This document shows, in pieces, positions 1 through 56,485 of a stretch of 64,000 nt of DNA; the first letter of the stretch is position 1; each line of letters begins with the position of its first letter. A program made the position numbers and the translations under genes. The notes under the pieces are model-generated. The model was not told the DNA's origin. It did no database searches and saw nothing but the letters and a program-made list of their open reading frames with translations. Source of the stretch: Deroplatys truncata (lineage: Eukaryota > Arthropoda > Insecta > Mantodea > Mantidae); the NCBI GenBank assembly GCA_030765065.1, contig CM060990.1, positions 661,366,618-661,430,617 of the forward strand, in the 5' to 3' direction.

Positions 1-1305
1 AAAGAGAACGGGATTTCACAAGTGAAACAGTACTGTGATAACGATACCACTGAAACAAAAAAAAAAATCTGATGTGTAACACTCACATGACTTTCTCAAC
101 TCTTGTACAAAGTATTTTTACAAACGCTTATTCCCCATCTAGTTCATGTTAATCGAGATAAACATTTGCAAAATCTATTTTATTGCTAATTTTCTTGTAT
201 AAAAAAAAAAATCTGATGTGTAACACTCACATGACGTTCTCTACTCTTGTACAAAGTATTTTTACAAACGCTTATGCTCCATCTAGTTCATGTTAATCGA
301 GATAAACATTTGCAAACTCTATTTTATTGCTAATTTTCTTGTAGATGTAGGGGAAAATATATTTACAAGGGGAATATAGAAAAACAGTAGCCTTTAAGCA
401 CATACATATCTCTTAATAGCTGGTTGCTATGTGCAACACCATTCTTTTTGCCACAGATTAATACTGTTTGCATATCAAAGACAAAAAAAAAAAATGAATA
501 ACGAAGTCCCATTTGAGAAAATAAATATTGGAAAATTAACAAACAATATCTCGAAAACGGTTCACTCAACAACAAAAATGTATATTACATAAGATGTGTA
601 TTTTAACGCGATCTACATTTTTTGTGTAGTAAAATTTTGTCTATCTCTTACGGTTTTTCAGTTATGAAAAAGACGTTCACAATGAAGAATACTTTTGGAG
701 ACATTCCCAGAAAATTCGAGATATACATTTCATTTCTCACGACATTATATTAAACATACGATATTTTTCATCAAAATCGTTAGAGCCATTTTTTTTAATA
801 CAAAGAGAACGGGATTTCACAAGTGAAACAGTACTGTGATAACGATACCAACAAAACTAATTATTATTCACCCACTGAAACACATAAAAAAAATCTGATG
901 TGTAACACTCACATGACTTTTCTCATCTCTTGTACAAAGTATTTTTACAAACGCTTATTCCCCATCTAGTTCATGTTAATCGAGATAAACATTTGCAAAC
1001 TCTGTTTTATTGCTAATTTTGTTGTAGATGTAGGGAAAATATATTTACAAGGGGAATATAGAAAAACAGTAGCCTTTAAGCACATACATATCTCTTAATA
1101 GCTGGTTGCTATGTGCAGTACCATTCTTTTTGCCACAGATTAATACTCTTTGCATATCAAAGACAAAAAAAAAATGAATAACGAATTCCCATTTGAGAAA
1201 ATAACTATTGGAAAATTTAAGTAAATAACAAGCAATATCTCGAAAACGGTTCACTCAACAATAAAGATGTATATGACATAAGTTGTGTATTTTAACGCGA
1301 TCTAC
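1..1305 (-). repeat. Cluster of partial F1 copies, left palindrome arm
   Basis: The F1 right-terminal motif ATCTGATGTGTAACACTCAC occurs near 67, 211 and 893, marking three partial minus-strand copies. The first is a ~140-bp terminal piece, the second runs to about 800, the third to about 1300. Short open frames in these copies carry the same peptide (ending CFSIFPL) because the copies are related. I see no real coding capacity. Confidence 0.8.
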
Positions 1306-1770
1306 ATACTTTCGTACTCACCTATAAGATATAGAGGGTAGAGGTCGTACGAACGTAGCACTTTGAGAATCTATATTCAACAGTTGGTGTTACTCCTTAG
1401 AAAGGAAGTATCTGCTGATTTTTATTTAATTCTTTACATTTTACATAACACGTATGCACTGGCACAACACAAAAGCACTACACACAATACTCAGTTTTAA
1501 TATTTGCACTAATAACATCAGGAATAACTGAAGTCTGCAAACAGTCATTTCCCATGTGCAGCCTTACGTACAGAAAACGTGTGTGGCTGATCTATGTGTA
1601 AAAAGAGCCTGAGAGCGGATGTACGTCAGCGGTAAAATCTTTTAAATGCATTTTTATTGGCGATGGTAGAAATCGTGCAGTGGTGGATCGTGAAAATTCA
1701 TATAAATGGATGTATCACCTCATAATAAGCCTCTATATACCAAGAATATTGAGTTTTTAAAAAGTCAGCA
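1306..1770. other. Unrecognised unique-looking segment, left arm
   Basis: About 460 bp between the F1 cluster and the 76-bp array, mirrored at 5966-6430. Read on the minus strand it has a TATA-like TATATAGAGG near its inner edge and an AATAAA further on, so it might be a promoter or LTR piece. No reading frame or family is recognised. Confidence 0.4.
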
Positions 1771-1771
1771 A

Positions 1772-3330
1772 CTGTACCTGTGTTTCTATACGTGAACGTC
1801 AGATGGCAGCTTCGATACGTGTCCACGGAGACCTTAGTGCTAGGCAACTGTACCTCTGTTTCTATACGTGAACGGCAGATTGCAGCTTCGATACGTGTCC
1901 ACGGAGACCTTAGTGCTAGGCAACTGTACCTCTGTTTCTATACGTGAACGGCAGATTGCAGCTTCGATACGTGTCCACGGAGACCTTAGTGCTAGGCAAC
2001 TGCACCTCTGTTTCTATACGTGAACGGCAGATTGCAGCTTCGATACGTGTCCACGGAGACCTTAGCGCTAGGCAACTGCACCTCTGTTTCTATACGTGAA
2101 CGGCAGATTGCAGCTTCGATACGTGTCCACGGAGACCTTAGTGCTAGGCAACTGTACCTCTGTTTCTATACGTGAACGGCAGATTGCAGCTTCGATACGT
2201 GTCCACGGAGACCTTAGTGCTAGGCAACTGTACCTCTGTTTCTATACGTGAACGGCAGATTGCAGCTTCGATACGTGTCCACGGAGACCTTAGTGCTAGG
2301 CAACTGCACCTCTGTTTCTATACGTGAACGGCAGATTGCAGCTTCGATACGTATCCACGGAGACCTTAGTGCTAGGCAACTGCACCTCTGTTTCTATACG
2401 TGAACGGCAGATTGCAGCTTCAATACGTGTCCACGGAGACCTTAGTGCTAGGCAACTGTACCTCTGTTTCTATACGTGAACGGGAGATTGCAGCTTCGAT
2501 ACGTGTCCACGGAGACCTTAGTGCTAGGCAACTGCACCTCTGTTTCTATACGTGAACGTCAGATTGCAGCTTCGATACGTGTCCACGGAGACCTTAGTGC
2601 TAGGCAACTGCACCTCTGTTTCTATACGTGAACGGCAGATTGCAGCTTCGATACGTATCCACGGGGACCTTAGTGCTAGGGAACTGCACCTCTGTTTGTA
2701 TACGTGAACGGCAGATTGCAGCTTCAATACGTGTACACGGAGACCTTAGTGCTAGGCAGCTGTACCTCTGTTTCTATACGTGAACGGCAGATTGCAGCTT
2801 CGATACGTGTCCACGGAGATCTTAGTGCTAGGCAGCTATACCTGTTTCTATACGTCAACGGCAGATTGCAGCTTCGATACGTGTTCACGGAGACCTTAGT
2901 GCTAGGCAACTGTACCTGTGTTTCTATACGTGTCCACGGAGACCTTAGTGCTAGACAACTGTACCTCTGTTTCTATACGTGAACGGCAGATTGCAGCTTC
3001 AATACGTGTCCACGGAGACCTTAGTGCTAGTGCTAGGCAACTATACCTCTGTTTCTATACGTGAACGGCAGATTGCAGGTTCGATACGTGTCCACGGAGA
3101 TCTTAGTGCTAGGCAACTATACCTGTTTCTATACGTGAACGGCAGATTGCAGCTTCGATACGTGTCCACGGAGACCTTAGTGCTAGGCAACTGTACCTGT
3201 GTTTCTATACGTGAACGTCAGATGGCAGCTTCGATACGTGTCCACGGAGACCTTAGTGTTAGGCAACTGTACCTCTGTTTCTATACGTGAACGGCAGATT
3301 GCAGCTTCGATACGTGTCCACGGAGACCTT
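1772..3330. repeat. 76-bp minisatellite, left arm
   Basis: About 20 tandem units of 76 bp. The unit contains TCTATACGTGAACGG and later CGATACGTGTCCACGG, so the two halves share a (T/G)ATACGTG core. Most units differ by single bases (TGTACC versus TGCACC, CGTGTCC versus CGTATCC). Near 2920-2940 a unit joins TCTATACGTG directly to TCCACGG, as expected from recombination between the half-unit cores. No conserved reading frame is seen. Confidence 0.95.
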
Positions 3331-3893
3331 TCGCTTCAGGTGACAAAATAACACTAGGCACTTGTGTGCCGTGGTGTAAGCCGCAATCACGGTATTGGTA
3401 GCGTGGATCTCCTTGGGGCTCTCCTCGGAGTTACCTCAACACCACGTACATGACCTGGTTCGTCACGGGTACGCAGGTCTGCACTACCACTTCCTCGGCG
3501 TTGAGCAGGCCCAGGAGGCGATCGTACCGGTACACCAGCTAGCACGTGGACATGTTATCGCGCTGTGGTGTTGCGTGTGCGAGGTATGGAAACTCAAGGA
3601 CGCAAAACATGCACGACCGAGGGTTAAAAAGCAGAACAAGTAGTGACGTGGAGCGTTGTGATTGGTGTAAATAAGACGATCTCTGATAGGTGGACAAATT
3701 GAAATAACGTGATGTGATAGGCGAAAATAAAATCAAAGGTGATTGGATGAAAAATGACGAGAAGGAATTAGCGGTGAATTTGTGAACTAAGATGGCGAAG
3801 ATTTTTTTTTTTTTAAAAAAAAGGATAATATAAGTACGGCAACTGTAAAGGTTTACGGCAAACGCGCGCCGCGCAATGCGTCACGCCCGGGCA
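3331..3893 (-). promoter_or_regulatory. Promoter-plus-exon-like core, left arm (mirror of 3921-4482)
   Basis: Same sequence as the right-arm core on the opposite strand; see that entry. The arms differ here by a homopolymer base, one A/G change that alters a codon of the small reading frame (Leu here, Pro in the right arm), and one extra C at the inner tip. Confidence 0.4.
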
Positions 3894-3920
3894 ATAAAAC
3901 AAAAATCATATTGAGCAAGA
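3894..3920. other. 27-bp spacer at the palindrome centre
   Basis: AT-rich, non-palindromic spacer flanked by GC-rich arm tips (CGCGCGCCGCGCAATGCG on the left and its reverse complement on the right). I see no resemblance to the PacBio SMRTbell hairpin adapter, so a simple missed-adapter read is not supported. Confidence 0.9.
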
Positions 3921-4482
3921 TGCCCGGCGTGACGCATTGCGCGGCGCGCGTTTGCCGTAAACCTTTACAGTTGCCGTACTTATATTATCCTTTTTTTAAA
4001 AAAAAAAAAATCTTCGCCATCTTAGTTCACAAATTCACCGCTAATTCCTTCTCGTCATTTTTCATCCAATCACCTTTGATTTTATTTTCGCCTATCACAT
4101 CACGTTATTTCAATTTGTCCACCTATCAGAGATCGTCTTATTTACACCAATCACAACGCTCCACGTCACTACTTGTTCTGCTTTTTAACCCTCGGTCGTG
4201 CATGTTTTGCGTCCTTGAGTTTCCATACCTCGCACACGCAACACCACAGCGCGATAACATGTCCACGTGCTAGCTGGTGTACCGGTACGATCGCCTCCTG
4301 GGCCTGCCCAACGCCGAGGAAGTGGTAGTGCAGACCTGCGTACCCGTGACGAACCAGGTCATGTACGTGGTGTTGAGGTAACTCCGAGGAGAGCCCCAAG
4401 GAGATCCACGCTACCAATACCGTGATTGCGGCTTACACCACGGCACACAAGTGCCTAGTGTTATTTTGTCACCTGAAGCGAA
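3921..4482 (+). promoter_or_regulatory. CCAAT-rich promoter and GC-rich exon-like core, right arm
   Basis: Seen in order on the plus strand: CGCCATCTTAGTTCAC near 4015; CCAAT at 4066-4070 and 4147-4151; a TTTTTAACCCTCG element near 4182; then a GC-rich stretch with an open frame from CTG 4274 to the stop at 4379-4381 (35 codons, beginning LVYRYDRLLGL). A possible splice donor, TTGAG|GTAACT, cuts inside that frame after 4377. The CCAAT-to-TTTTTAACCCTCG arrangement matches the 1.1-kb tandem units at 9660-12130. I infer a promoter with a short first exon. The peptide matches no family I recognise, and the open frame could be chance in a GC-rich patch. Confidence 0.4.
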
Positions 4483-5962
4483 AGGTCTCCGTGGACACGT
4501 ATCGAAGCTGCAATCTGCCGTTCACGTATAGAAACAGAGGTACAGTTGCCTAACACTAAGGTCTCCGTGGACACGTATCGAAGCTGCCATCTGACGTTCA
4601 CGTATAGAAACACAGGTACAGTTGCCTAGCACTAAGGTCTCCGTGGACACGTATCGAAGCTGCAATCTGCCGTTCACGTATAGAAACAGGTATAGTTGCC
4701 TAGCACTAAGATCTCCGTGGACACGTATCGAACCTGCAATCTGCCGTTCACGTATAGAAACAGAGGTATAGTTGCCTAGCACTAGCACTAAGGTCTCCGT
4801 GGACACGTATTGAAGCTGCAATCTGCCGTTCACGTATAGAAACAGAGGTACAGTTGTCTAGCACTAAGGTCTCCGTGGACACGTATAGAAACACAGGTAC
4901 AGTTGCCTAGCACTAAGGTCTCCGTGAACACGTATCGAAGCTGCAATCTGCCGTTGACGTATAGAAACAGGTATAGCTGCCTAGCACTAAGATCTCCGTG
5001 GACACGTATCGAAGCTGCAATCTGCCGTTCACGTATAGAAACAGAGGTACAGCTGCCTAGCACTAAGGTCTCCGTGTACACGTATTGAAGCTGCAATCTG
5101 CCGTTCACGTATACAAACAGAGGTGCAGTTCCCTAGCACTAAGGTCCCCGTGGATACGTATCGAAGCTGCAATCTGCCGTTCACGTATAGAAACAGAGGT
5201 GCAGTTGCCTAGCACTAAGGTCTCCGTGGACACGTATCGAAGCTGCAATCTGACGTTCACGTATAGAAACAGAGGTGCAGTTGCCTAGCACTAAGGTCTC
5301 CGTGGACACGTATCGAAGCTGCAATCTCCCGTTCACGTATAGAAACAGAGGTACAGTTGCCTAGCACTAAGGTCTCCGTGGACACGTATTGAAGCTGCAA
5401 TCTGCCGTTCACGTATAGAAACAGAGGTGCAGTTGCCTAGCACTAAGGTCTCCGTGGATACGTATCGAAGCTGCAATCTGCCGTTCACGTATAGAAACAG
5501 AGGTGCAGTTGCCTAGCACTAAGGTCTCCGTGGACACGTATCGAAGCTGCAATCTGCCGTTCACGTATAGAAACAGAGGTACAGTTGCCTAGCACTAAGG
5601 TCTCCGTGGACACGTATCGAAGCTGCAATCTGCCGTTCACGTATAGAAACAGAGGTGCAGTTGCCTAGCGCTAAGGTCTCCGTGGACACGTATCGAAGCT
5701 GCAATCTGCCGTTCACGTATAGAAACAGAGGTGCAGTTGCCTAGCACTAAGGTCTCCGTGGACACGTATCGAAGCTGCAATCTGCCGTTCACGTATAGAA
5801 ACAGAGGTACAGTTGCCTAGCACTAAGGTCTCCGTGGACACGTATCGAAGCTGCAATCTGCCGTTCACGTATAGAAACAGAGGTACAGTTGCCTAGCACT
5901 AAGGTCTCCGTGGACACGTATCGAAGCTGCCATCTGACGTTCACGTATAGAAACACAGGTAC
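4483..5962. repeat. 76-bp minisatellite, right arm
   Basis: Mirror image of the left array with the same order of variant units, including the unit carrying GCGCTA and the half-unit deletion near 4885. It is one unit shorter: the left array has two successive TGTACC units near 2152 and 2228, while the right has only one near 5578. Confidence 0.95.
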
Positions 5963-5965
5963 AGT

Positions 5966-6430
5966 TGCTGACTTTTTAAAAACTCAATATTCTTGGTATA
6001 TAGAGGCTTATTATGAGGTGATACATCCATTTATATGAATTTTCACGATCCACCACTGCACGATTTCTACCATCGCCAATAAAAATGCATTTAAAAGATT
6101 TTACCGCTGACGTACATCCGCTCTCAGGCTCTTTTTACACATAGATCAGCCACACACGTTTTCTGTACGTAAGGCTGCACATGGGAAATGACTGTTTGCA
6201 GACTTCAGTTATTCCTGATGTTATTAGTGCAAATATTAAAACTGAGTATTGTGTGTAGTGCTTTTGTGTTGTGCCAGTGCATACGTGTTATGTAAAATGT
6301 AAAGAATTAAATAAAAATCAGCAGATACTTCCTTTCTAAGGAGTAACACCAACTGTTGAATATAGATTCTCAAAGTGCTACGTTCGTACGACCTCTACCC
6401 TCTATATCTTATAGGTGAGTACGAAAGTAT
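5966..6430. other. Unrecognised unique-looking segment, right arm
   Basis: Mirror of 1306-1770. On the plus strand it starts near a TATATAGAGGC motif, and an AATAAA lies near 6310. Nothing else is recognised. Confidence 0.4.
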
Positions 6431-7735
6431 GTAGATCGCGTTAAAATACACAACTTATGTCATATACATCTTTATTGTTGAGTGAACCGTTTTCGAGATA
6501 TTGCTTGTTATTTACTTAAATTTTCCAATAGTTATTTTCTCAAATGGGAATTCGTTATTCATTTTTTTTTTGTCTTTGATATGCAAAGAGTATTAATCTG
6601 TGGCAAAAAGAATGGTACTGCACATAGCAACCAGCTATTAAGAGATATGTATGTGCTTAAAGGCTACTGTTTTTCTATATTCCCCTTGTAAATATATTTT
6701 CCCTACATCTACAACAAAATTAGCAATAAAACAGAGTTTGCAAATGTTTATCTCGATTAACATGAACTAGATGGGGAATAAGCGTTTGTAAAAATACTTT
6801 GTACAAGAGATGAGAAAAGTCATGTGAGTGTTACACATCAGATTTTTTTTATGTGTTTCAGTGGGTGAATAATAATTAGTTTTGTTGGTATCGTTATCAC
6901 AGTACTGTTTCACTTGTGAAATCCCGTTCTCTTTGTATTAAAAAAAATGGCTCTAACGATTTTGATGAAAAATATCGTATGTTTAATATAATGTCGTGAG
7001 AAATGAAATGTATATCTCGAATTTTCTGGGAATGTCTCCAAAAGTATTCTTCATTGTGAACGTCTTTTTCATAACTGAAAAACCGTAAGAGATAGACAAA
7101 ATTTTACTACACAAAAAATGTAGATCGCGTTAAAATACACATCTTATGTAATATACATTTTTGTTGTTGAGTGAACCGTTTTCGAGATATTGTTTGTTAA
7201 TTTTCCAATATTTATTTTCTCAAATGGGACTTCGTTATTCATTTTTTTTTTTGTCTTTGATATGCAAACAGTATTAATCTGTGGCAAAAAGAATGGTGTT
7301 GCACATAGCAACCAGCTATTAAGAGATATGTATGTGCTTAAAGGCTACTGTTTTTCTATATTCCCCTTGTAAATATATTTTCCCCTACATCTACAAGAAA
7401 ATTAGCAATAAAATAGAGTTTGCAAATGTTTATCTCGATTAACATGAACTAGATGGAGCATAAGCGTTTGTAAAAATACTTTGTACAAGAGTAGAGAACG
7501 TCATGTGAGTGTTACACATCAGATTTTTTTTTTTATACAAGAAAATTAGCAATAAAATAGATTTTGCAAATGTTTATCTCGATTAACATGAACTAGATGG
7601 GGAATAAGCGTTTGTAAAAATACTTTGTACAAGAGTTGAGAAAGTCATGTGAGTGTTACACATCAGATTTTTTTTTTTGTTTCAGTGGTATCGTTATCAC
7701 AGTACTGTTTCACTTGTGAAATCCCGTTCTCTTTG
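6431..7735 (+). repeat. Cluster of partial F1 copies, right palindrome arm
   Basis: Mirror of 1-1305, now in plus orientation. Right ends with the motif GAGTGTTACACATCAGAT occur near 6828, 7507 and 7652. The copies differ from those of the left arm only in rare homopolymer lengths. Confidence 0.8.
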
Positions 7736-8048
7736 TATTAAAAAATGGCTCTAACGATTTTGATGAAAATATCATATATTTAAGATAATGTCGAGAGAAA
7801 TGAAATGTATATCTCGAATTTTCTGGGAATGTCTCCAAAAGAATTCTTCATTGTGAACGACTTTTTCATAACTGATAAACCGTAAGAGATAGACAAAAGT
7901 TTGCTACACAAAAAATGTAGATCGCGTTAAAATACACAACTTATGCCATATACATTTATTTTGTTGAGTGAACCGTTTTTCGAGATATTGCTTGTTATTT
8001 CCTTTAAATTTTCCAATACTTATACTTTTTCTCAAATGCGTTATTCAT
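7736..8048 (+). repeat. F1 partial copy interrupted by another F1
   Basis: Internal F1 sequence (GGCTCTAACGATTTTGAT through the ATTCATTTTT run) that stops where a new F1 left end begins at about 8049. The break is at a T-run, which suggests that one F1 copy inserted into another. Confidence 0.7.
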
Positions 8049-8832
8049 TTTTACTTTCTCTACTACGTATAGTAAGTAGGGGAAGTATTGCATTCCACCC
8101 AAAAATTCGATACCGAGATTTCACTGGAAATACATGTTTTGAGAATCACTGAATCCAGAAAAAAAAAGCATTTTTGGAAACATGTCCGTGTGTGTGTCTG
8201 TCTGTGTGTCTGTGTGTCTGTGAACAGCATAACTCAAAAACGAACAGTCGGATAAACACCAAACTTGGTATTTAGGTTCAGTATCTTCCAGAGATGCGAC
8301 ACGAAGGTTTTCAAGAAATTCCCCCCACCCCAGACTACCCTTTACATGGAACATTTTTCGAAAATTTTAATTTTCTCAAAAACGGCTCTAACGATTTTGA
8401 TTAAAACATCATATGTTTAAGATATTGTCATGTCAAATAAAATGTATATCTCGAATTTTCTGGGAATGTCTCCAAAAATATTCTTCATTGTGAACGACTT
8501 TTTTGCATAACTGGTAAACCATAAGAGATAGACAAAATTTTACTACACAAAAAATGTAGATCGCGTTAAAATACACAACTTATGTCATATACGTTTCTTT
8601 TGTTGAGTGAACCGTTTTCGAGATATTGCTTGTTATTTCCTTAAATTTTCCAATACTTATACTTTTTCTCAAATTCGTTTATTCATTTTTTTTATGTCCT
8701 GAACATGCAAACAGAATGGAATTCGCCACATAGCAACCAGCGTTAAAATATTTGACTATCGCTTAAAAGCTACCAATTAGATTGTACAAGAGTAGAGAAA
8801 GTTATGTGAGTGTAACAAATCAGTTTTTTTTT
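8049..8832 (+). mobile_element. F1 element, near-complete copy
   Basis: Runs from the left end TTTTTACTTTCTCTACTACG to the right end GTAGAGAAAGTTATGTGAGT followed by a T-run. The terminal sequences contain the short inverted match ACTTTCTCTACT / AGTAGAGAAAGT. A TG-rich microsatellite sits near 8187-8222. There is no coding frame, so F1 looks like a short non-autonomous element (about 0.8-0.9 kb) of unknown class. Confidence 0.7.
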
Positions 8833-8848
8833 ATACGCTACTATTTTA

Positions 8849-8883
8849 GTGTGTGTGTGTGTGTGTGTGCGCGCGCGCGCGCG
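8849..8883. repeat. (TG)n(CG)n microsatellite
   Basis: About 10 TG dinucleotides followed by about 7 GC dinucleotides. Confidence 0.9.
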
Positions 8884-9094
8884 AGTACGTGCCTAGGAAC
8901 CGTGCGCCACAAGCCAAAACGACGACGTTATAGAAAAACTTTATCAATTGCCTACCGGCCAGGGACAACCGCTAAAAAACCTGAAAAAAGCTCTAAGAGT
9001 ATTCTAACGCTTACCGATCTGGAAAACCCTTGAAAACAAGATAGTACACTTTTGAGATATTGCTTGTTATTTCCTTAAATTTTTCAATACTTTT
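8884..9094. repeat. CTACC-CAGGGACAACC motif block and F1 scrap
   Basis: Contains TTGCCTACCGGCCAGGGACA followed by CCGCTAAAAAACCTG, a block that recurs at 9365-9405. It ends with a short F1 piece (GAGATATTGCTTGTTATTTC) that abuts the next F1 left end. Confidence 0.5.
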
Positions 9095-9198
9095 TTACTT
9101 TCTCTACTACGTATAGTAAGTAGGGGAAGTATTGCATTCCGCCCAAAAATTCGATACCGAGATTTCACCGGAAATACACGTTTTGAGACCTCCTGAAT

Positions 9199-9233
<35 letters not shown>

Positions 9234-9250
9234 CATTTTTGGAAACATGT
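9095..9250 (+). mobile_element. F1 left-end fragment
   Basis: The F1 left end TACTTTCTCTACTACGTATA followed by about 150 bp of F1. A 33-base A-run (9200-9232) sits where other copies have 7-8 A. The copy is lost after the expanded GT tract. Confidence 0.8.
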
Positions 9251-9315
9251 CCGTGTGTGTGTGCCTGTCTGTGTGTCTGTCTGTCTCTCTGTGTGTGTGT
9301 GTGTGTGTGTGTGCG
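9251..9315. repeat. GT-rich microsatellite inside F1
   Basis: Mixed GT, CTGT and CTCT repeats ending in about 10 GT units, at the position where other F1 copies have short GTGTGTGTCTGTCTGTG. Confidence 0.9.
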
Positions 9316-9659
9316 CGCCAGTACGTGCCTAGTATCCGTGCGCCGACAAGGTAAAACTTCATCATTTGCCTACCGGGCAGGGACAACCGCTAAAAACCTG
9401 AGAAAACCTCCAAAATTAGAAACGCCTTCGTCAACCAGTACAGAAAACGCCTACCAACCAGGGAAAACCTATGAAAAAGCAGAAAGAGCTTGCATTTGTT
9501 TACCATCCGCAGAAAACTCCCCAAAAAAAAAAAAAAAAAAAAAAACTAGTCATTTTAAAAAAAAAAAAGGAAAAAGACCAATAATATAAGTATGGTAGAA
9601 ACAGCTTGCATTCGTCTACCAACCAGAGAAAACCCCCGAAACACTAGTTATTTAAAATT
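9316..9659. repeat. Degenerate CTACC-CCAGGGAAAACC motif repeats and A-runs
   Basis: Blocks of the form CTACCxxxCAGGGAMAACC occur near 9370, 9449, 9500 and 9616, separated by A-runs at 9521-9545 and 9557-9568. The AGAGAAAACCCCCGAAA part resembles the reverse complement of the CGGGGTTTTCCC segment of the SINE2 family, so this may be stacked SINE debris. Confidence 0.4.
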
Positions 9660-10790
9660 GCTGATGAGTTCTGGATAGGCTTTTGCAAATGTTGTTGGTA
9701 GCAAAACTTGCCTTTTCCATCACCTCCAACATACCCCACTCCCACACCTTTTTTTCTTTCCACCAATCATAATCTCTCTTATTCTCGCCAATCAGCAACT
9801 TTCATTTGTTCCTTTCCACCAATAACATCACTTCTTATTCCCACCAATGACAACTTCACACGTCACTTTCTGTTATACTTTTTATCCCTCGTTCGCCATC
9901 TTTCCCCCTCTTTCAGACCCCAACCGCCGCACAGTCAACACCTCGCCGCTCCTTAACCTCAACTTCGTGCCTCCGCCATCTTATTTAGTTCACATTTTTA
10001 CCACCGCGCCTCTCATCTCTCAACCAGATTGCCTGCAAGAACAGATCTCGTTCATTCGCACCTCGACGGTTGCCTCGGCAGCAGCTACTGCCAACACCTA
10101 CGTCGTACACGTTTTTGACCGCTTTCGACCGGCTTGAGAACCCTGCTCCTACGTACGCTAGCGACCATCACGATGGTCCAGTACCAGGTTTTGGTATAGT
10201 TAAATTACGCCTCTGCAAAGGGTGTCTGTACCGCTTTAAAAACCTAGGTATATCAGTGCGTAGTGATGTTGGTTGATCTTAAAGCTGGTTAAGCATTTTC
10301 AAAAACAGTTTGCTTTTATTTTTCCGCCTCGCGTGCCGCGCTTTTGGTGACGCATCCACACCGGTAACAGGTAAGTAACACACGCATAATTATTTTTCGG
10401 ACCTGCTTGGCGTAGGAATATATCCTTTCGTGTTTTGGTACTGTAACCTCAAACCTCCTTACCCTCCTCTTGCGTCCGCCATCTTGTTTAGTTCTCACCG
10501 CATCTCCTTGTCGCAGACCCTCCGCCATTTTTAGTTCCCGCTATTTTAACCTCAAAATCTACTCTTCTAACCTCTTGCTACCGCCATCTTCTTTTAGTTC
10601 CCATTCTCACCACCGCGTCTCCTTACCCCCACCTCTTGCGACCGTCATGTTCACCACTAACCTCCAAATTTCCTCGTCCTTAAACCTCTTGTCTCAACCA
10701 CCTTGTTTAGTTCCCATTTTCGCCACCGCATCTCATATCGCCCCATCTCTCTATCCACTCAAGAAAACTACCATCCAACGTTCAAAAATT
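9660..10790 (+). repeat. 1.1-kb tandem unit 1: CCAAT cluster, leader, splice donor
   Basis: Starts GCTGATGAGTTCTGG. It contains a cluster of CACCAAT/GCCAAT motifs (about 9761-9850), an ACTTTTTATCCCTCG element near 9877, a GC-rich leader, a short frame starting ATGGTCCAGTACCAG, and a consensus splice donor GTAACAG|GTAAGTA with GT at 10371. Downstream are degenerate repeats of CCGCCATCTTxTTTAGTTC. The CCAAT block resembles that of the palindrome core. I read it as a multicopy promoter plus first-exon module, but the product is unknown and no downstream exon is recognised. Confidence 0.65.
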
Positions 10791-11863
10791 GCTGATCAGT
10801 TCAAGACAGGCTTTTGCAAATCTTGCTGCTAGCAAAACTCACCTTTCCCATCACCTCCAACATACCCCACTCCCACAACTTTTTCTTTTCCACCAATCAT
10901 AATCCCTCTTATTCCTACCAATCAACAACTGTCATTTGTTCCTTTCCACCAATAAAATCACTTCTTATTCCCACCAATCACAACTTCACACGTCACTTTC
11001 TGTTACACTTTTTATCCCTCGCTCCCCATCTTTTCCCTCTTTCAGTCCCGACCTCCGCACACACAACACCTCGCCGCTGCTCACATCTCCGAACCAAATT
11101 GCCGGCGAGAACAGATCTCGTTTATTCACACCTCGACGGTTGACTCGACAGCAGCTACTGCGAACACCTACGTCGTACACGTTTTTGACCGCTTTCGACC
11201 GGCTTGAGAACCCTGCTCCTACGTACGCTAGCGACCATCACGATGGTCCAGTACCAGGTTTTTGGTATAGTTAAATTACGCCTCTGCAAAGGGTGTCTGT
11301 ACCGCTTTAAAAACCTAGGTATATCAGTGCGTAGTGATGTTGGTTGATCTTAAAGCTGGTTAAGCATTTTCAAAAACAGTTTGCTTTTATTTTTCCGCCT
11401 CGCGTGCCGCGCTTTTGGTGACGCATCCACACCGGTAACAGGTAAGTACCACACGCATAATTATTTTTCGGACCTGCTTGGCGTAGGAATATATCCTTTC
11501 GTGTTTTCGTACTGTAACCTCAAATCTCCTTACCCTCCTCTTGCGACCGCCATCTTGTTTAGTTCTCACCGCATCTCCTTGTCGTAGACCCTCCGCCATT
11601 TTTAGTTCCCACTATTTTAACCTCAAAATCTACTCTTCTAAAACTCTTGCTACCCCCATCTTCTTTTAGTTCCCATTCTCACCACTGCATCTCCTTACCC
11701 CCACCTCTTGCGACCGCCGTGTTCACCACTAACCTCCAAATTTCCTCGTCCTTAAACCTCTTGTCTCAACAACCTTGTCTAGTCCCCATTTTCGCCACCG
11801 CAACTCATATCGCCCCCATCTCTCTATCCACTCAAGAAAACTACCATCCGACGTTCAAAAATT
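10791..11863 (+). repeat. 1.1-kb tandem unit 2
   Basis: Direct repeat of unit 1, offset by 1131 bp, beginning GCTGATCAGTTCAAG. It keeps the CCAAT cluster, the leader with ATGGTCCAGTACCAG, and the donor ACAG|GTAAGTACC with GT at 11442. By eye the part from the leader to the CCGCCATCTT repeats is almost identical to unit 1, which suggests recent duplication or gene conversion. Confidence 0.85.
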
Positions 11864-12130
11864 GCTGATCAGTTCAAGACAGGCTTTTGCAAATCTTGCT
11901 GCTAGCAAAACTCACCTTTCCCATCACCTCCAACATACCCCACTCCCACAACTTTTTCTTTTCCACCAATCATAATCCCTCTTATTCCTACCAATCAACA
12001 ACTCTCATTTGTTCCTTTCCACCAATAAAATCACTTCTTATTCCCACCAATCACAACTTCACACGTCACTTTCTGTTACACTTTTTATCCCTCGCTCCCC
12101 ATCTTTACCCCTCTTTCAGTACCGACCTCC
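11864..12130 (+). repeat. 1.1-kb tandem unit 3, 5' part only
   Basis: Third start of the unit, 1073 bp after the second, with the same CCAAT cluster and CTTTTTATCCCTCG. Similarity ends near 12130 in a C/T-rich stretch, so the leader and donor are missing. Confidence 0.85.
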
Positions 12131-12268
12131 GCACAGACAACACCTCGCCACCCAGCTCCTCTCCATCACGCGACCTCCATACTCCTCCATCTCCCTTCCT
12201 CCATCTCCCACCCCAAATTAACGAACCAATCAAAACACTACACGTCACTTCCTCAATTCTTTCAACTC
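12131..12268. other. Pyrimidine-rich stretch
   Basis: C/T-rich sequence with one further ACCAATCAAAAC motif and a CACGTCACTTCC element near 12240. This may be a remnant of another unit. No gene is seen. Confidence 0.3.
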
Positions 12269-12417
12269 GTCCCGGATGAGCCAACCGATTTAACGATAAT
12301 CCTACCGCTCAGGGCGCTTTTCAAACACACCGCCGCCGCCGTCGCACGCACCGACACTAGCGACACCAGCGCCCCTAGCGGCAGGATTATCGTTAAATCA
12401 ATTGGCTCATCCGGGAC
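12269..12417. mobile_element. Foldback MITE, 149 bp with ~50-bp inverted ends
   Basis: The left end GTCCCGGATGAGCCAACCGA and the reverse complement of the right end GTCCCGGATGAGCCAATTGA continue in parallel through TTTAACGATAATCCT and (A/G)CCGCT to GGGCGCT. This gives inverted ends of about 50 bp with few mismatches around a GC-rich loop. No coding capacity. The target duplication is unclear, so the superfamily is not assigned. Confidence 0.8.
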
Positions 12418-12894
12418 TAATACTACTTTTGCCGTTTCGCTTATCCAGTAAACATTCTTTTTAATTTTTATTTTTGTATATTTATTTGAAAGTGAGTTAA
12501 TGAATTTCGATATAAATGTGGGCAACTATCCTAAGTACACCTTTTGCCACTATGCCCAAAGTTAGCCACTTATTCGGCAACGTACATGTGCGAAAGGTAG
12601 AGAGAGTCCTTCAACTGGGTAAACAAAGATCTGGGTCACAAATTTAGGCTGGCACCGTGAGCGCAGGATCCATTCCTCAGGAATCCAGGTAGCTTAGCAG
12701 GTAATACCCTTCATGCCTTCCGGCCGTATGACCAGTCTAATAGGCAGCAGGCAATAGCTTGGATCCCTCGCCCTCTTCTAGGAAGCCTCAGAGTGGTATG
12801 AATGTCGTAATTGTGTTATAAGACTAAAATGAAGAAAAACATCTTATAATAGTAAACATGTCCCCCAACGAGATTGAAATTACAGTGAGCAGAG
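12418..12894. other. No gene recognised
   Basis: AT-rich with a moderately GC-rich patch at 12640-12800. A lone A-box-like TAGCTTAGCAGG occurs near 12691 without a convincing B box at tRNA distance. Confidence 0.3.
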
Positions 12895-15759: not shown

Positions 15760-16053
15760 AATCCAGATTCTTCTGGAAGTTTTTGCTTTTCGCATTCCAC
15801 AAACATTGCAGAAATTCTCGCATTTGTACATAAGCAATCGTGCTCGTGAGTGAGTTTGTGAAGCGGAAAACTACCGGTAACTCATTGCGTTCCACCAGTG
15901 AGGTTGTAACGACAGTTATGACGTACAGTGAGTGCTGCTACTGTAAGCAATTAAAGAGGTTTCGTGTTTAACACCCCAAATAGTGAAGCGGAAGAAGAGG
16001 GAGCTTCCGGTCTCTTACGGCTACGTCGCGAGGAAAAGTATTCACAAAGAGAA
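15760..16053 (+). promoter_or_regulatory. Possible heat-shock-like promoter and leader before the minisatellite
   Basis: AGATTCTTCTGGAAGTTTTT (near 15767) approximates alternating GAA/TTC units. It is followed by a GTGAGTGAGTTTGTGAAGC-rich leader like the one after the perfect element at 61180. A short frame reading SEAEEEGASGLLRLRREEK lies just before the minisatellite. The relation to 61180-61560 is suggestive only. Confidence 0.3.
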
Positions 16054-17095
16054 CTGAAATAAACCATTAGTGAAATGATGGTGAAAACTGAAATAAACCA
16101 TTAGTGAAATGATGGTGAAAACTGAAATAAACCATTAGTGAAATGATGGTGAAAACTGAAATAAACCGTTAGTGAAATGATGGTGAAAACAGAACTAAAC
16201 CGTTAGTGAAATGATGGTGAAAACAGAACTAAACCGTTAGTGAAATGATGGTGAAAACAGAACTAAACTGCTGGTGAAATGATGGTTAAAACAGAACTAA
16301 ACCGTTAGTGAAATGATGGTGAAAACAGAACTAAACCGTTAGTGAAATGATGGTGAAAACAGAACTAAACCGTTAGTGAAATGATGGTGAAAACAGAATT
16401 AAATCGTTAGTGAAATGATGGTGAAAACAGAACTAAATCGTTAGTGAAATGATGGTGAAAACAGAACTAAATCGTTAGTGAAATGATGGTGAAAATAGAA
16501 TTAAATCGTTAGTGAAATGATGGTGAAACTGAACTAAACCGTTAGTAAAATGATGGTGAAAACTGAACTAAACCGTTAGTGAAATGATGGTGAAAACTGA
16601 ACTAAACCGTTAGTGAAATGATGGTAAAAACTGAATTAAACCGTTAGTGAAATGATGGTGAAAACTGAACTAAACCGTAAGTGAAATGATGGTGAAAACT
16701 GAACTAAACCGTTAGTGAAATGATGGTGAAACTGAAGTAAACCACGTTAATGAAGCGATGGTGAAAACTGAACTTAACCACGTTCGTGAAGGCACAGTGG
16801 AAACTGAACTACATCACGTTAGCGAAGTGAGGGTGAAAAGTGAACTACATCACGTTAGCGAAGTGAGGGTGAAAAGTGAACTACATCACGTTAGCGAAGT
16901 GAGGGTGAACTAAATCAAGTTATTGAAGCGACGGTGAAAACTGAACTAAACCACGTTAGTGAAGCGATGGTTAAAACTGAACTAAACCACGTTAGTGAAG
17001 CGACGGTGAACAGTGAAGTACATCACGTTAGTGAAGTGAGGCCGAAAAATGAACTACATCACGCTAATGAAGTGAGAGTGAAGAGTGAACGAAGT
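16054..17095 (+). repeat. 34/36-bp minisatellite with 12-residue coding periodicity
   Basis: About 20 units of 34 bp (core AACCGTTAGTGAAATGATGG) to about 16735, then about 10 units of mostly 36 bp (core AACCACGTTAGTGAAGCGA) to 17095. The 34-bp unit lacks two bases (ACCACGTT becomes ACCGTT). The 36-bp units keep an open frame: five units near 16740-16915 read like ELHHVSEVRVKS, and a second run reads ELNHVSEAMVKT from 16934. A short deletion separates the runs. The 34-bp units shift frame at every repeat and cannot encode a long protein. The 36-bp end therefore looks ancestral and the 34-bp end a later expansion. Confidence 0.9.
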
Positions 17096-26130: not shown

Positions 26131-27025
26131 GTTTTTTTTACTTTCTCTACTACGTATAGTAAGTAGGGGAAGTATTGTATTCCACTCAAAAATTCGATAC
26201 TGAGATTTCACCGCAAATACATGTTTTGAGACCCCCTGAATCCAAAAAAAGTATTTTAGAAACATTTCCGTGTGTGTGTCTGTCTGTGAAAAGCATAACT
26301 CGTAAACGAACAGTCGGATAAACACCAAACTTGGTATTTAGGTTCAGTATCTTCCAAGGATGCGACACGAAGGTTTTCAAGAAAATCCCCCACCCCAGAT
26401 TACCCTTTACATGGAAGATTTTTCGAAAATTTTAATTTTCTCAAAAATGGCTCTAACGATTTTGATTAAAGTATCATATGTTTAAGATATTTTCATGACA
26501 AATAAAATGTATATCTCGAATTTTCTGGGAATGTCTCCAAAAGCATTCTTCATTGTGAACGACTTTTGCATAACTGGTAAACCATAAGAGATAGACAAAA
26601 TATTACTACACAAAAAATGTAGATCGCGTTAAAATACACAATTTATGACACATACATTTTTGATGTTGAGTGAACTATTTTCGAGATATTGCTTGTTATT
26701 CCCTTAAATTTTTCAATACTTGTTTTCTCAAATGGGAATTCGTTATTCATTTTTTTGTCTTGGATATGCAAAGAGTATTATCTGTGGCAAAGAAAATGGT
26801 GCTGCACCTAGCAACCAGCTATTAAGAGATATGTATGTGCTTAAAGGCTACTGTATATCTATATTGCCCTTGTAAATATATATTTCCTTACATCTACAAG
26901 AAAATTAGCAATAAGATAGAGTCTGCAAATGTTTATCTCGATTAACACGAAGTAGATGGAGAATAAGCGTTTGTAAAAATAGTTTGTACAAGAGTAGAGA
27001 AAGTCACATCAGATTTTTCTTTTTG
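26131..27025 (+). mobile_element. F1 element, most complete plus-strand copy
   Basis: About 890 bp from TTTTTTACTTTCTCTACTAC to AGAGTAGAGAAAGTCACATC. The internal order is as in 8049-8832, plus the AGAGTATTATCTGTGGCAAA to AACCAGCTATTAAGAG segment that is also found in the palindrome copies. Best reference copy for the family here. The two ends share ACTTTCTCTACT in inverted orientation. Confidence 0.8.
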
Positions 27026-28094: not shown

Positions 28095-28908
28095 GTCCAA
28101 AAGTGAGAGTATGGGAAGTATTGCATTACACCCAAAAATTTTATACCGATATTTCACCGGAAATACATGTTTTGAGGCCTCCTGAATAAAAAAAAACATT
28201 TTTAGAAAAAGTTCTGTATGCGTGTGAACAGCATAACTCAAAAACGAAAAGTCGATAAATACCAAACTTGGTATTTAAGTTTAGTATCTCTCAAAGATGC
28301 AACAGGAATATTTTCAAGAAAATTCCTCCAACCCAGAATACCCTTTACATGGAACATTTTTCGAAAATTTTGATTTTCTCAAAAATTTCTCTAAGGACTT
28401 TGATTAAAATAGCATATGTTTAAGATATTTTCATGACAAATAAAATGTCTATCTTGAATTTTCTGGGAATGTCGCCAAAAGTCTTCCTTCTGAATGGCTT
28501 TTCCATAACTCGTAAGCCGTAAGAGATAGACAATATTTTTCTACACAAAAAATGTAGATCTCGTTAAAACACACAATTTATGTTGTACATTTTTTGTGCA
28601 GAGATATTCCTTAATATTTATTTGAATTTTCCATTTCTTATATTTTTTCTCAAATGGGAATTTGTTATTCGTTTATGTCCTGGACATGTAAAGAGAATGG
28701 AATACTCCACATAGCAACCAGCTCTTAAAAGATGAGACTATCGCTTAAAACCTACCACATTTCCCTTGCACCTACAAGAAAATAAGCAATAAAACTAACA
28801 TCCTGATATCTCGATTAACATGAAGTAGATGGAGAATAAGCGTTTGAAAAAATAGTTTGTACAGGAGTAAAGAAAGTCATGTGAGTAACAGAATCAGATT
28901 TTTTTTTA
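28095..28908 (+). mobile_element. F1 copy lacking its left tip
   Basis: Starts at GGGAAGTATTGCATTACACC and follows F1 order to AAAGTCATGTGAGTAACAG and a T-run. The expected ACTTTCTCTACT at the left end is missing. Confidence 0.75.
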
Positions 28909-41062: not shown

Positions 41063-42350
41063 AAGGGTATTTCAATAAGTGTCCTATCTTTATGTGTTAG
41101 CTGCCGTTGTTATTGAGTTACAGCCGCCATTTTTTCATGTGGTTACAGTTGTTATTGATAAATAGCCATGGAGCGCTACAGCATTCAGCAACCCGTAGAA
41201 ATTGTGAAAATGTATTATCAAAGTGTATTATCTGTTCGCCAAACCTTCCGTGTATTCCGTGAAGTTTACGGTGTGCATAACCATCCCTGCGAGAGAACGA
41301 TTCGGCGTTTGATCGATAAAGTTGAAAGAAGTGGTTCTGTCAGCGATCAAAGAATGCCTGTACGTAATCAACGTAAGCGCTCCAACGAAAACATAGGTGC
41401 CGTTCGTGAGAGTGTACGCGAGAATGGAAACAAATCAATTGCTCGTCGAGCGCAAGAACTGGGGGTTTCGCCGACCACAACTTGGCAAATTATGCATCTG
41501 GACTTGAAGTGTCACGCTTACAAAATGGTGATAACACAAGAACTAAAGTCCAACGACCATAGGTTGCGCCGTGTATTCGCTGACTGGGCTATAGAGCCAT
41601 GGAAGCTGACCCGGATTTTTGTCGAAAAATCATGTTCAGCGAAGAAGTCCACTTTTGGATGGATGTTTGTCTTAAACAAAATTGCCGCTATTGGAGCAAT
41701 CACAATCCAATGCAGATTCAAGAACGACCATTTCATCCCCAAAAGGTTACTGTGTGGTGTGGATTTTGGTATGGTGGAATCATTGGTCCATATTTTTTCC
41801 AAGATGAAGATGGAGTAGCTCTAACTGTCAACGTAGAAAGATACCGGGCTCTTATAAGGGACTATTTTTGGCTTAAATTGGATGGCATGGATCTCGGAAA
41901 CCTCTGGTTCCAGCAAGATGGTGCTACATGTCAATAATGCTCTCGAAACAATCGATGTTTTGAAGGAGAATTTCAGAGGTTTCATCATTTCCCGTGGTGG
42001 TGATGTTAAATGGCCCCCGAGGTTATGTGATTTAACGCCGTTGGATTACTTCTTGTGGGGTTATGTTAAATCTCGAATTTATGTCAACAAGCCAGAAACA
42101 GCAAATGATCTTATGAATAACATCACGCGTGTTATTCGTGAAGTTGGACCTAATTTACGTTCTTCTGTCATTGAAAATTGGGTCAACCGTATACGCGCAA
42201 CCCAACGAAGTCGCGGCGGTCACTTAACTGATATTCTCTTCCACACGTAATGACAATTATGTTCCAAAATAAAAAAGGAATAAACCTCTTATCATTTATA
42301 GAACGTGTTTTATTTAAGTTCAAAGATAGGACACTTGTTAAAAGACCCTT
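41063..42350 (+). mobile_element. Tc1/mariner transposon, DD41D type, inactive
   Basis: A complete 1288-bp element flanked by TA (41061-41062 and 42351-42352). The inverted ends are AAGGGTATTTCAATAAG on the left and AAGGGTCTTTTAACAAG on the right, both continuing TGTCCTATCTTT. One transposase is spread over three frames. The first (from ATG 41168) has the DNA-binding helix-turn-helix region (MERYSIQQPVEIVKMYYQ...). The next (41599-41937) has FSEEVHFW and WFQQDGATC. The third (to 42250) has PPRLCDLTPLDYFLWGYV and SRGGHLTDILFHT. Frameshifts lie near 41590 and near 41935. The second and third catalytic Asp codons are 124 nt apart, 41 codons plus one base, which fits the DD41D (rosa-like) group. 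The first catalytic Asp is replaced by Glu. It is therefore non-autonomous. Confidence 0.93.
41168..42250 (+). pseudogene. Mariner transposase pseudogene
   Basis: The enzyme cuts and joins DNA at the element's inverted ends in the nucleus. Family landmarks are present in order: N-terminal helix-turn-helix domain, a second domain with ARRAQELGVSPTTTWQI, and the catalytic core with WFQQDGAT and CDLTPLDYFLWG. The total coding length of about 360 codons equals the family's usual size, so nothing large is missing. Two small indels break the frame, and the first acidic residue reads E (FSEE) instead of the usual D (FSDE). Otherwise conserved wording suggests a fairly young death. Confidence 0.9.
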
Positions 42351-55611: not shown

Positions 55612-56485
55612 AAAAATTCTGATGTGTTACACTCACATGACTTTCTCTACTCTTGTACAAACTATTTTTACAAACGCTTATTCTCCATATGCTTCATGTT
55701 ACTCGAGATATCGAGATGTCAATCTTATTGCTAATTTTCTTGTAGATGCAAGGGGAACATGGTAGGTTATAAGCGATAGTCAAATCTTTTAAGCGCTGGT
55801 TGCTATGTGGCGCATTCTATTCTGTTTGCATATCCAGGACATAAAAAATTGAATAACGAATTTGAGAAAAAGTGTAAGTATTGGAAAATTTAAGGAAATA
55901 ACAAGCAATATCTCGAAAATGGTTCACTCAACTAAAAAAATGTATATGACATAAATTCTGTATTTTAACGCGATCTACATTTTTGTGTAGTAACATTTTG
56001 TCTATCTCTTATGGTTTACCAGTTATGCAAAAGTCGTTCACAATGAAGAATACTTTTGGAGACATTCCCAGGAAATTCAAGATATACATTTTATTTGTCA
56101 TAAAAATATCTTAAACATATGATATTTTAATCAAAATCGTTAAGAGCCATTTTTGAGAAAATTAAAATTTTCGAAAAATCTTCCATGTAAAGGGTACTCT
56201 GGGGTGAGGTGATTTTCTTGAAAACCTTCGTGTCGCATCCTTGGAAGATACTGAACCCAAATACCAAGTTTGGTGTTTATCCGACTGTTCGTTTCTGAGT
56301 TATGCTGTTCACAGACACACACACAGACAGACACACAGACACACATAAGGACATGTTTCCAAAAATACTTTTTTTGGATTCAGGGGGTCTCAAAACAGTA
56401 TTTCCGGTGAAATCTCGGTATCGAAATTTTGGGTGGAATACAATACTTCCCCTACTTACTATACGTAGTAGAGAAAGTAAAAAAT
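55612..56485 (-). mobile_element. F1 element, complete minus-strand copy
   Basis: From AATTCTGATGTGTTACACTC and GACTTTCTCTACTC at its right end to CTATACGTAGTAGAGAAAGT at its left end. About 870 bp, in the same block order as 26131-27025. A CA-rich tract (56310-56345) lies at the standard GT position. Confidence 0.85.

Follow-up and report, generated by a model that had tools for sequence, protein, structure and literature searches.

A 64,000-nucleotide stretch of the genome of the mantis Deroplatys truncata (assembly GCA_030765065.1, contig CM060990.1; G000:C16:661366618-661430617 of the 4.29-Gb assembly), hereafter referred to as the window, opens within a giant palindrome. This palindrome, which has about 800 relatives in the same genome, is probably a non-autonomous Polinton/Maverick that is palindromic throughout and whose arms would be rebuilt by copy-back replication.

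The palindrome at the window locus

Base 1 of the window pairs with base 7734, and the two arms (1-3891 and 3919-7734) are separated by a 27-bp spacer, or loop (3892..3918), with the centre folding into a long hairpin. This pairing confirms the near-perfect palindrome proposed in an earlier, sequence-only reading of the window, together with its claim that the arms differ by few single bases and one 76-bp unit. The differences are two changes in A-run length (483/7253 and 3815/3998), one A/G substitution (3504/4308), a single mismatched base adjoining the spacer, and one additional 76-bp unit in the left arm. The 76-bp units form a tandem array in each arm (1768..3330, - strand; 4482..5968, + strand), in which 17 unit variants follow one another in identical order (left, ABBCDBBEFGHIJKLMNOPQ; right, ABBCDBEFGHIJKLMNOPQ).

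However, the extent given by that reading, positions 1 to 7735, was too short. The right arm continues beyond 7735 and is complete over 8,509 bp from loop to terminus (3919..12427, + strand), while the left arm starts before the window and is truncated by its edge. Directly preceding the window start are 1000 N, and upstream, across this gap, lies the stretch L009, which holds the full left arm (L009:371-8966). Its inner part (window 1..3891, - strand) is identical to L009:5076-8966, and its outer 4.7 kb (L009:371-5075) lie before the window. Window positions 1-3925 correspond to L009:5076-9000, the terminal part of the contig that precedes the gap, with 3925/3925 positions identical, and thus this part of the left arm occurs twice in the assembly. 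The 3,925-bp contig overlap left unmerged at the gap is a local false duplication, a small assembly fault by which the palindrome was not created.

When the duplicated overlap is excluded, the complete element is ~17.1 kb in length (arms of 8,596 and 8,509 bp and the 27-bp loop). It has AGTAGT termini, both ends reading AGTAGTATTAGTCCCGG..., and is flanked on both sides by the 6-bp target-site duplication TTTGCC (12428..12433, with its partner directly before L009 base 371). The terminal ~160 bp (12268..12427, + strand) form one long hairpin (-53.3 kcal/mol, z -13.2) and end in ...ACTAATACTACT (reverse AGTAGTATTAGT).

A dispersed family with a common loop

Using a 39-bp pattern across the loop (up to 3 mismatches), the junction was found 804 times in the genome (408 + 396), and reversed-pattern controls gave 0 occurrences. 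Ten full copies, namely the window copy and nine others, were picked from these approximately 800 among the best matches to the window centre, and older or more divergent copies are therefore under-represented. All ten are palindromic and 17-18.6 kb long. Nine contain no assembly N, the exception being the window copy (a lone N in copy C2 is a script separator); the reality of the palindromes and the accuracy of their arms rest on the assembly. The same 27 loop letters are present in the nine other full copies and in 20/20 further centres, 18 of which are palindromic over the 185-387 bp read on each side. Both termini of the copies are AGTAGTATTAGT or AGTAGTAATAGT. Copy C11 (L016/L017) has one AGT fewer than the other copies at both of its ends, and such repeated end triplets would presumably suit a jump-back model of protein priming.

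Target-site duplications of exactly 6 bp were detected by script in 9/10 full copies. The tenth is C7, for which the script had started from a duplicated terminus further inside; at the true outer terminus, a matching duplication (TGCGTC) was identified by eye. The left end of C7 carries a tandem duplication of the terminal ~605 bp (L024:773-1377). Empty-site relatives that span the insertion point were found for four of the nine copies tested (C7 left out). C609 is inserted in a satellite array, and its empty-site relative is 98.7% identical over 234 bp, with neighbouring units giving empty sites at 96.6-98.7% (L021 around 8659-9744); the other three matches were less close, with about 77% for C4, at best 85% for C14, and 86% for C11.

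A 36-bp marker from the arm segment 5969..6423 and its mirror (positions 6340-6375 and 1361-1396 of the window) was found 1,560 times in the genome (776 + 784), or 1.94 times per centre, and 94/100 arm markers among the matches listed (exact matches only) are in inverted pairs. Solitary arms are therefore infrequent, and this speaks against a single-arm parent being common.

Coding relatives with the same termini

Termini of the form AGTAGTAWTAGT... are present 4,522 times in the genome (2,263 + 2,259; at most one mismatch), which is over two per palindrome. Six paired-terminus elements (E1-E6), picked since the loop did not appear among the matches listed, were sampled in pieces. E2, E3, and E6 (18.7-19.8 kb) are non-palindromic in the pieces read, and their middles contain an open PolB-like open reading frame (ORF) and a P-loop ORF. 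PolB (PF03175) was above the Pfam cut-off in E2 and E6 (E=1.5e-06 and 5.7e-07), and one piece of E2 encodes an integrase (rve, E=3.3e-15; chromo, E=5.9e-07). The P-loop ORF of the resident elements matched no Pfam family above cut-off, and no capsid or protease family was matched in the resident-element ORFs scanned with Pfam. A PolB marker occurs 997 times genome-wide (517 + 480; up to 3 mismatches), and 6-bp target duplications were seen by eye in 3/3 related elements (E1, E2, and E6). Since its termini are shared with PolB- and integrase-encoding elements, the palindrome is filed as a non-autonomous Polinton/Maverick; as it has no PolB or integrase of its own, it is a derivative and not a complete member of this group.

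The two ends of E2, and likewise those of E6, here termed A and B, have only ~160 bp in common. The outer arm of the palindrome is collinear in blocks with end A of E2 and E6, from 12427 inward to about 7742 (7742..12427, + strand), at roughly 94-97% identity. The similarity of the arm to end B of E2 is limited to the terminal ~160 bp and a single 52-bp match. Judging from these alignments, the outer arms of the palindrome are apparently end A twice, and end B is missing. The PolB- and integrase-encoding elements could supply enzymes in trans and, because the termini and the target duplication are shared, we infer that the palindrome may be mobilised in this manner.

The remaining elements include further palindromes. 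E1 represents a second palindrome class of 15.3 kb, with a different ~1-kb middle and the target duplication AAGCTT (G000:C1:238762-254044; L049, L055, L056, L071, and L072); end A is present at both of its ends, and these are 99.5% alike over 2,997 bp. E5, also palindromic, has the arms of the window copy; a different loop was considered for it and rejected, since a single base of the loop is changed. E4 is a derivative of shorter length.

Between the 76-bp array and the loop, each arm of the window palindrome contains a PolB remnant in two frame-broken pieces. The first (4274..4378, + strand; mirror 3431-3538, - strand) is 60% identical to resident PolB over 35 aa, and the second, in a different frame (4377..4487, + strand; mirror on the - strand of the left arm), is 56% identical over 32 aa. 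This inner fragment had no match in Pfam, PHROGs (best E 0.25), or viral contigs, nor in PDB sequences (tried with piece 2 only) or phage records (tried with piece 1 only), and its PolB origin was backed later by the comparison with resident PolB sequences. The remnant points toward end A, and resident PolB points away from end A.

Concerted evolution of the two arms

The loop orients each copy, and hence the arms could be named X and Y and compared over 7,762 gapless columns (20 arms, ten copies). Partner arms differ at 2, 14, 8, 1, 7, 7, 9, 6, 9, and 0 sites in the ten copies, and arms of different copies differ at 13-113 sites (median 49; 180 pairs), such that the nearest arm is the arm's own partner in 19/20 cases. 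Among 218 biallelic sites (two further sites with more than two alleles were set aside), 161 show the minor allele in both arms wherever a copy carries it, with 118 of these private to the two arms of one copy and 43 common to several copies. The rest comprise 38 single-arm singletons, 17 mixed sites, and two sites with the allele on one arm in several copies; none of the 218 separates X from Y. Faithful copying of the palindrome would make X resemble X, and the reverse is seen. Therefore, the arms of a copy evolve in concert.

Similarly, the arms are sisters in a tree for 9/10 copies, with C4 as the exception; support for the sister relationship is 98-100 for seven copies and 72 for C7, the window copy having no printed value. 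Indels outside the array (677-681 bp and 205 bp) have an identical state on both arms in all ten copies. The terminal repeats of the non-palindromic E2 and E6, taken as a control (n=2), differ at 8 and 9 of 155 bp, and those of the ten palindromes differ by 0-2 substitutions (plus one gap in C13). In E1 there is one substitution and a 9-base length difference. Across the inner 380 bp of 25 centres (excluding L042, L047, and L045; seven belong to the ten full copies), there is too little variation to be very informative: of 14 sites, three are on both arms only, nine are single-arm, and two are mixed.

Proposed copy-back replication and alternative explanations

Polintons are thought to replicate by a protein-primed polymerase. 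Under the copy-back model, the palindrome would replicate extrachromosomally as linear DNA, protein-primed by resident PolB, and a nascent or displaced strand would snap back at the 27-nt loop. The snapped-back strand would then copy its own arm outward, such that a matched arm pair would be regenerated in each round. The product would be inserted into the chromosome by a Polinton integrase, and both the ends and the 6-bp duplications of the element fit insertion by an integrase of this type. The arms of an integrated copy would subsequently drift apart, and thus arm divergence would date the insertion, as with long terminal repeats. Since a fold-back would rebuild the whole arm in one step, large indels would be included and leftover mismatch would be expected at the far ends.

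There is perhaps an even chance that the element is the DNA counterpart of copy-back defective genomes inside a eukaryotic genome, that is, a gene-less, self-complementary Polinton replicated outside the chromosome by the enzymes of a full-length relative, with one arm rebuilt from the other in each round and with a copy number like that of the relative (804 centres versus 997 PolB markers). The E1 class, derived from the same end, suggests that such satellites arise repeatedly.

Several observations weigh against copy-back replication of a Polinton derivative. Matched arms are also obtainable by gene conversion after insertion. C4_X is nearer to an arm of another copy (13 differences) than to its own partner (14), and arms are unmatched in the outermost ~1 kb of C4 and the outer ~1.6 kb of C7. 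Shared polymorphisms in these outermost regions (~1 to 1.6 kb) account for 8/14 arm differences in C4 and 8/9 in C7, and for 6/9 in C609, there mostly in the array. Additionally, the 76-bp arrays are not always matched: they differ by one unit in the window copy and by about 350-380 bp in C11, and C16b and C609 also show unit differences. Total arm length differs by 89 bp in the window copy and by 356 bp in C11, where the difference lies in this array. Two of the 20 further centres (L042 and L047) are broken 24 and 7 bp past the loop and run beyond the break into other sequence that matches dispersed repeats. Finally, DNA identity between the PolB remnant and resident PolB is only 77.5-78.6%, the remnant is reversed relative to end A, and the direct progenitor of the palindrome was not found among the resident elements sampled. 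Plain fold-back of a resident element was considered as its origin and failed on this orientation and identity, and thus the sampled resident elements are not its direct parent. The breaks in L042 and L047 would be consistent with a fragile palindrome centre; L042 pairs perfectly over its 24-bp stem and lacks the one-base asymmetry of the eight centres compared.

Arm-to-arm conversion after chromosomal insertion, as in Y-chromosome palindromes, would likewise yield concerted arms, and the heterogeneous tracts remaining at the outer arm ends of C4 and C7 and the differing array lengths of some copies are in keeping with it. It nonetheless appears unlikely, although deserving of serious consideration. 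The matching spans most of the arm, including the 677-681-bp non-array indels in all ten copies, and the ATT/AAT variant of the terminal motif is the same at both ends in 10/10, whereas a site about 15 bp inward differs in C4 and C13. In addition, 43 both-arm variants are common to at least two copies, which suggests that the matched states predate those insertions, and the terminal repeats of resident non-palindromic elements are unmatched (n = 2). In our view, fold-back would fit the arm matching, the shared indels, and the outer-end mismatches better than patchwise conversion. The sequence-only reading, which had offered active conversion, was right in part, in that the arms are kept alike; copying during replication is preferred as the cause. 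Repeated, independent formation, in which a single-arm parent folds back at the same natural hairpin to make each palindrome anew, would explain matched arms and a fixed loop as well; the second class, E1, with its other centre, suggests that palindromes formed more than once, and the perfect stem of L042 with unrelated sequence beyond it could be read in the same way. This explanation is improbable, as the ratio of arm markers to centres (1.94) and the inverted pairing of 94/100 markers among the matches listed indicate that a single-arm parent is rare or gone, and the one-base asymmetry beside the loop is common to the eight centres compared.

The remaining alternatives would place the palindrome outside the Polintons or deny it as a mobile element. 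The long inverted arms with tandem repeats recall the foldback transposons FB and Galileo (partial text of PMC4168063), and an origin within these (P superfamily) or within the Mutator/Tm1 type, unrelated to Polintons, would account for them. This is very improbable given the 6-bp duplications, the AGTAGT ends, and the PolB and integrase of same-terminus elements; the duplications of Galileo are 7-8 bp in the part of PMC4168063 available. The possibility of an inverted chimera from assembly or amplification, which the sequence-only reading took seriously, is encouraged by the frequency of foldback or inverted-repeat reads in long-read data (partial texts of PMC12870357 and PMC13141652) and by the contig overlap error at this very locus. 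However, such an artefact, or a single recent inverted duplication as also suggested in that reading, has a negligible probability: both are rejected for the family, since the same loop recurs at 804 junctions, the flanks are distinct, and the 6-bp duplications match at the two ends; 9/10 full copies read through without an assembly N, and empty-site relatives exist for 4/9. What stands of its proposals is a mobile element of foldback type, with 6-bp target-site duplications on 10/10 full copies.

Comparison with known systems

By its ends and target duplication the element belongs with the Polintons, as a non-autonomous member, and it works like a foldback element. Polinton/Maverick features are the AGT-repeat termini, 6-bp duplications, inverted terminal repeats, the length of 17-18 kb, and the presence in the genome of same-terminus relatives with PolB and an rve/chromo integrase. 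In the available part of one survey, the end motifs of vertebrate Mavericks include 5'-(AGT)2//(ACT)2-3', the ends carry AG or AGT repeats, and the duplications measure 6 bp (PMC8097293); another source, likewise in part, gives a Polinton target duplication of 6 bp, with IS3EU usually also producing 6 bp but having TA..TA ends (PMC10045372). In contrast to intact vertebrate Mavericks, for which terminal repeats of 46-1,447 bp are given (PMC8097293, partial text), the palindrome has no genes of its own, and its ~8.5-kb inverted repeats make up the whole element. It also differs in having end A at both ends and arms that evolve in concert. No palindromic Polinton was described among the matches listed in the open-access literature.

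Foldback elements (Drosophila FB and Galileo; nematode Tm1) resemble the palindrome in their long near-identical inverted arms, internal tandem arrays, and short middle. Tm1 is reportedly a nematode foldback-type element with long inverted arms, of the Mutator kind, and FB and Mutator types make 9-bp target duplications. The palindrome differs in its 6-bp duplications, Polinton-type ends, and relatives with PolB and integrase, with no P- or Mutator-type transposase there. Palindromic derivatives of protein-primed linear replicons include those of the yeast pGKL plasmids and the symmetric defective genomes of adenovirus type. In these, as here, part of a linear replicon is mirrored round a short loop and one end type is kept twice; in contrast, the palindrome is integrated in the genome in hundreds of copies, between which the concerted arms are visible. 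In yeast chromosomes, a strand can fold at a short inverted repeat near a break and be filled in to give an inverted duplication (PMC10622511, in part). As portrayed there, such duplications are single chromosome rearrangements, whereas the palindrome is mobile and multi-copy.

Other features of the arm and the window

In six frames, the arm contains no Pfam domain above cut-off and no intact PolB, integrase, capsid, protease, or packaging ATPase. Matches to the Pfam family Catalase-rel were under the curated cut-off and located in the 76-bp array, and were taken as spurious. Exact-pattern searches of viral contigs and genome contigs found nothing. Outside the array, the arm segment at 5969..6423 (+ strand) has its mirror, 1313-1767, as the only relative seen within the window. 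It is followed by a dispersed-repeat region (6424..9420, + strand) with relatives at 26443-27024, 28381-28907, and 55612-56154, which from 7742 on is also found in resident end A, and by a CCAAT-rich stretch with a 1.07-kb tandem pair (9654..12149, + strand), which is part of end A.

Beyond the palindrome, a 216-aa ORF with a DUF4817 helix-turn-helix domain (41168-41818; E=4e-15) is a probable transposase remnant, and ~29 copies of a 34-bp tandem unit lie at 16052-17056. Neither ARAGORN nor Rfam at gathering scores detected any known RNA gene in the window.

Implications

We know of no direct view of the protein-primed replication of Polintons in animals. The concerted arms of hundreds of palindromic copies suggest that an intramolecular fold-back step takes place between insertions, and this is testable from sequence. 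Real giant palindromes may be discarded as artefacts by read filters or broken by assemblers, as at the window locus. For the biology of these elements, the palindromes would carry a built-in clock for each insertion, and they might give rise to very long hairpin RNAs that serve in silencing.

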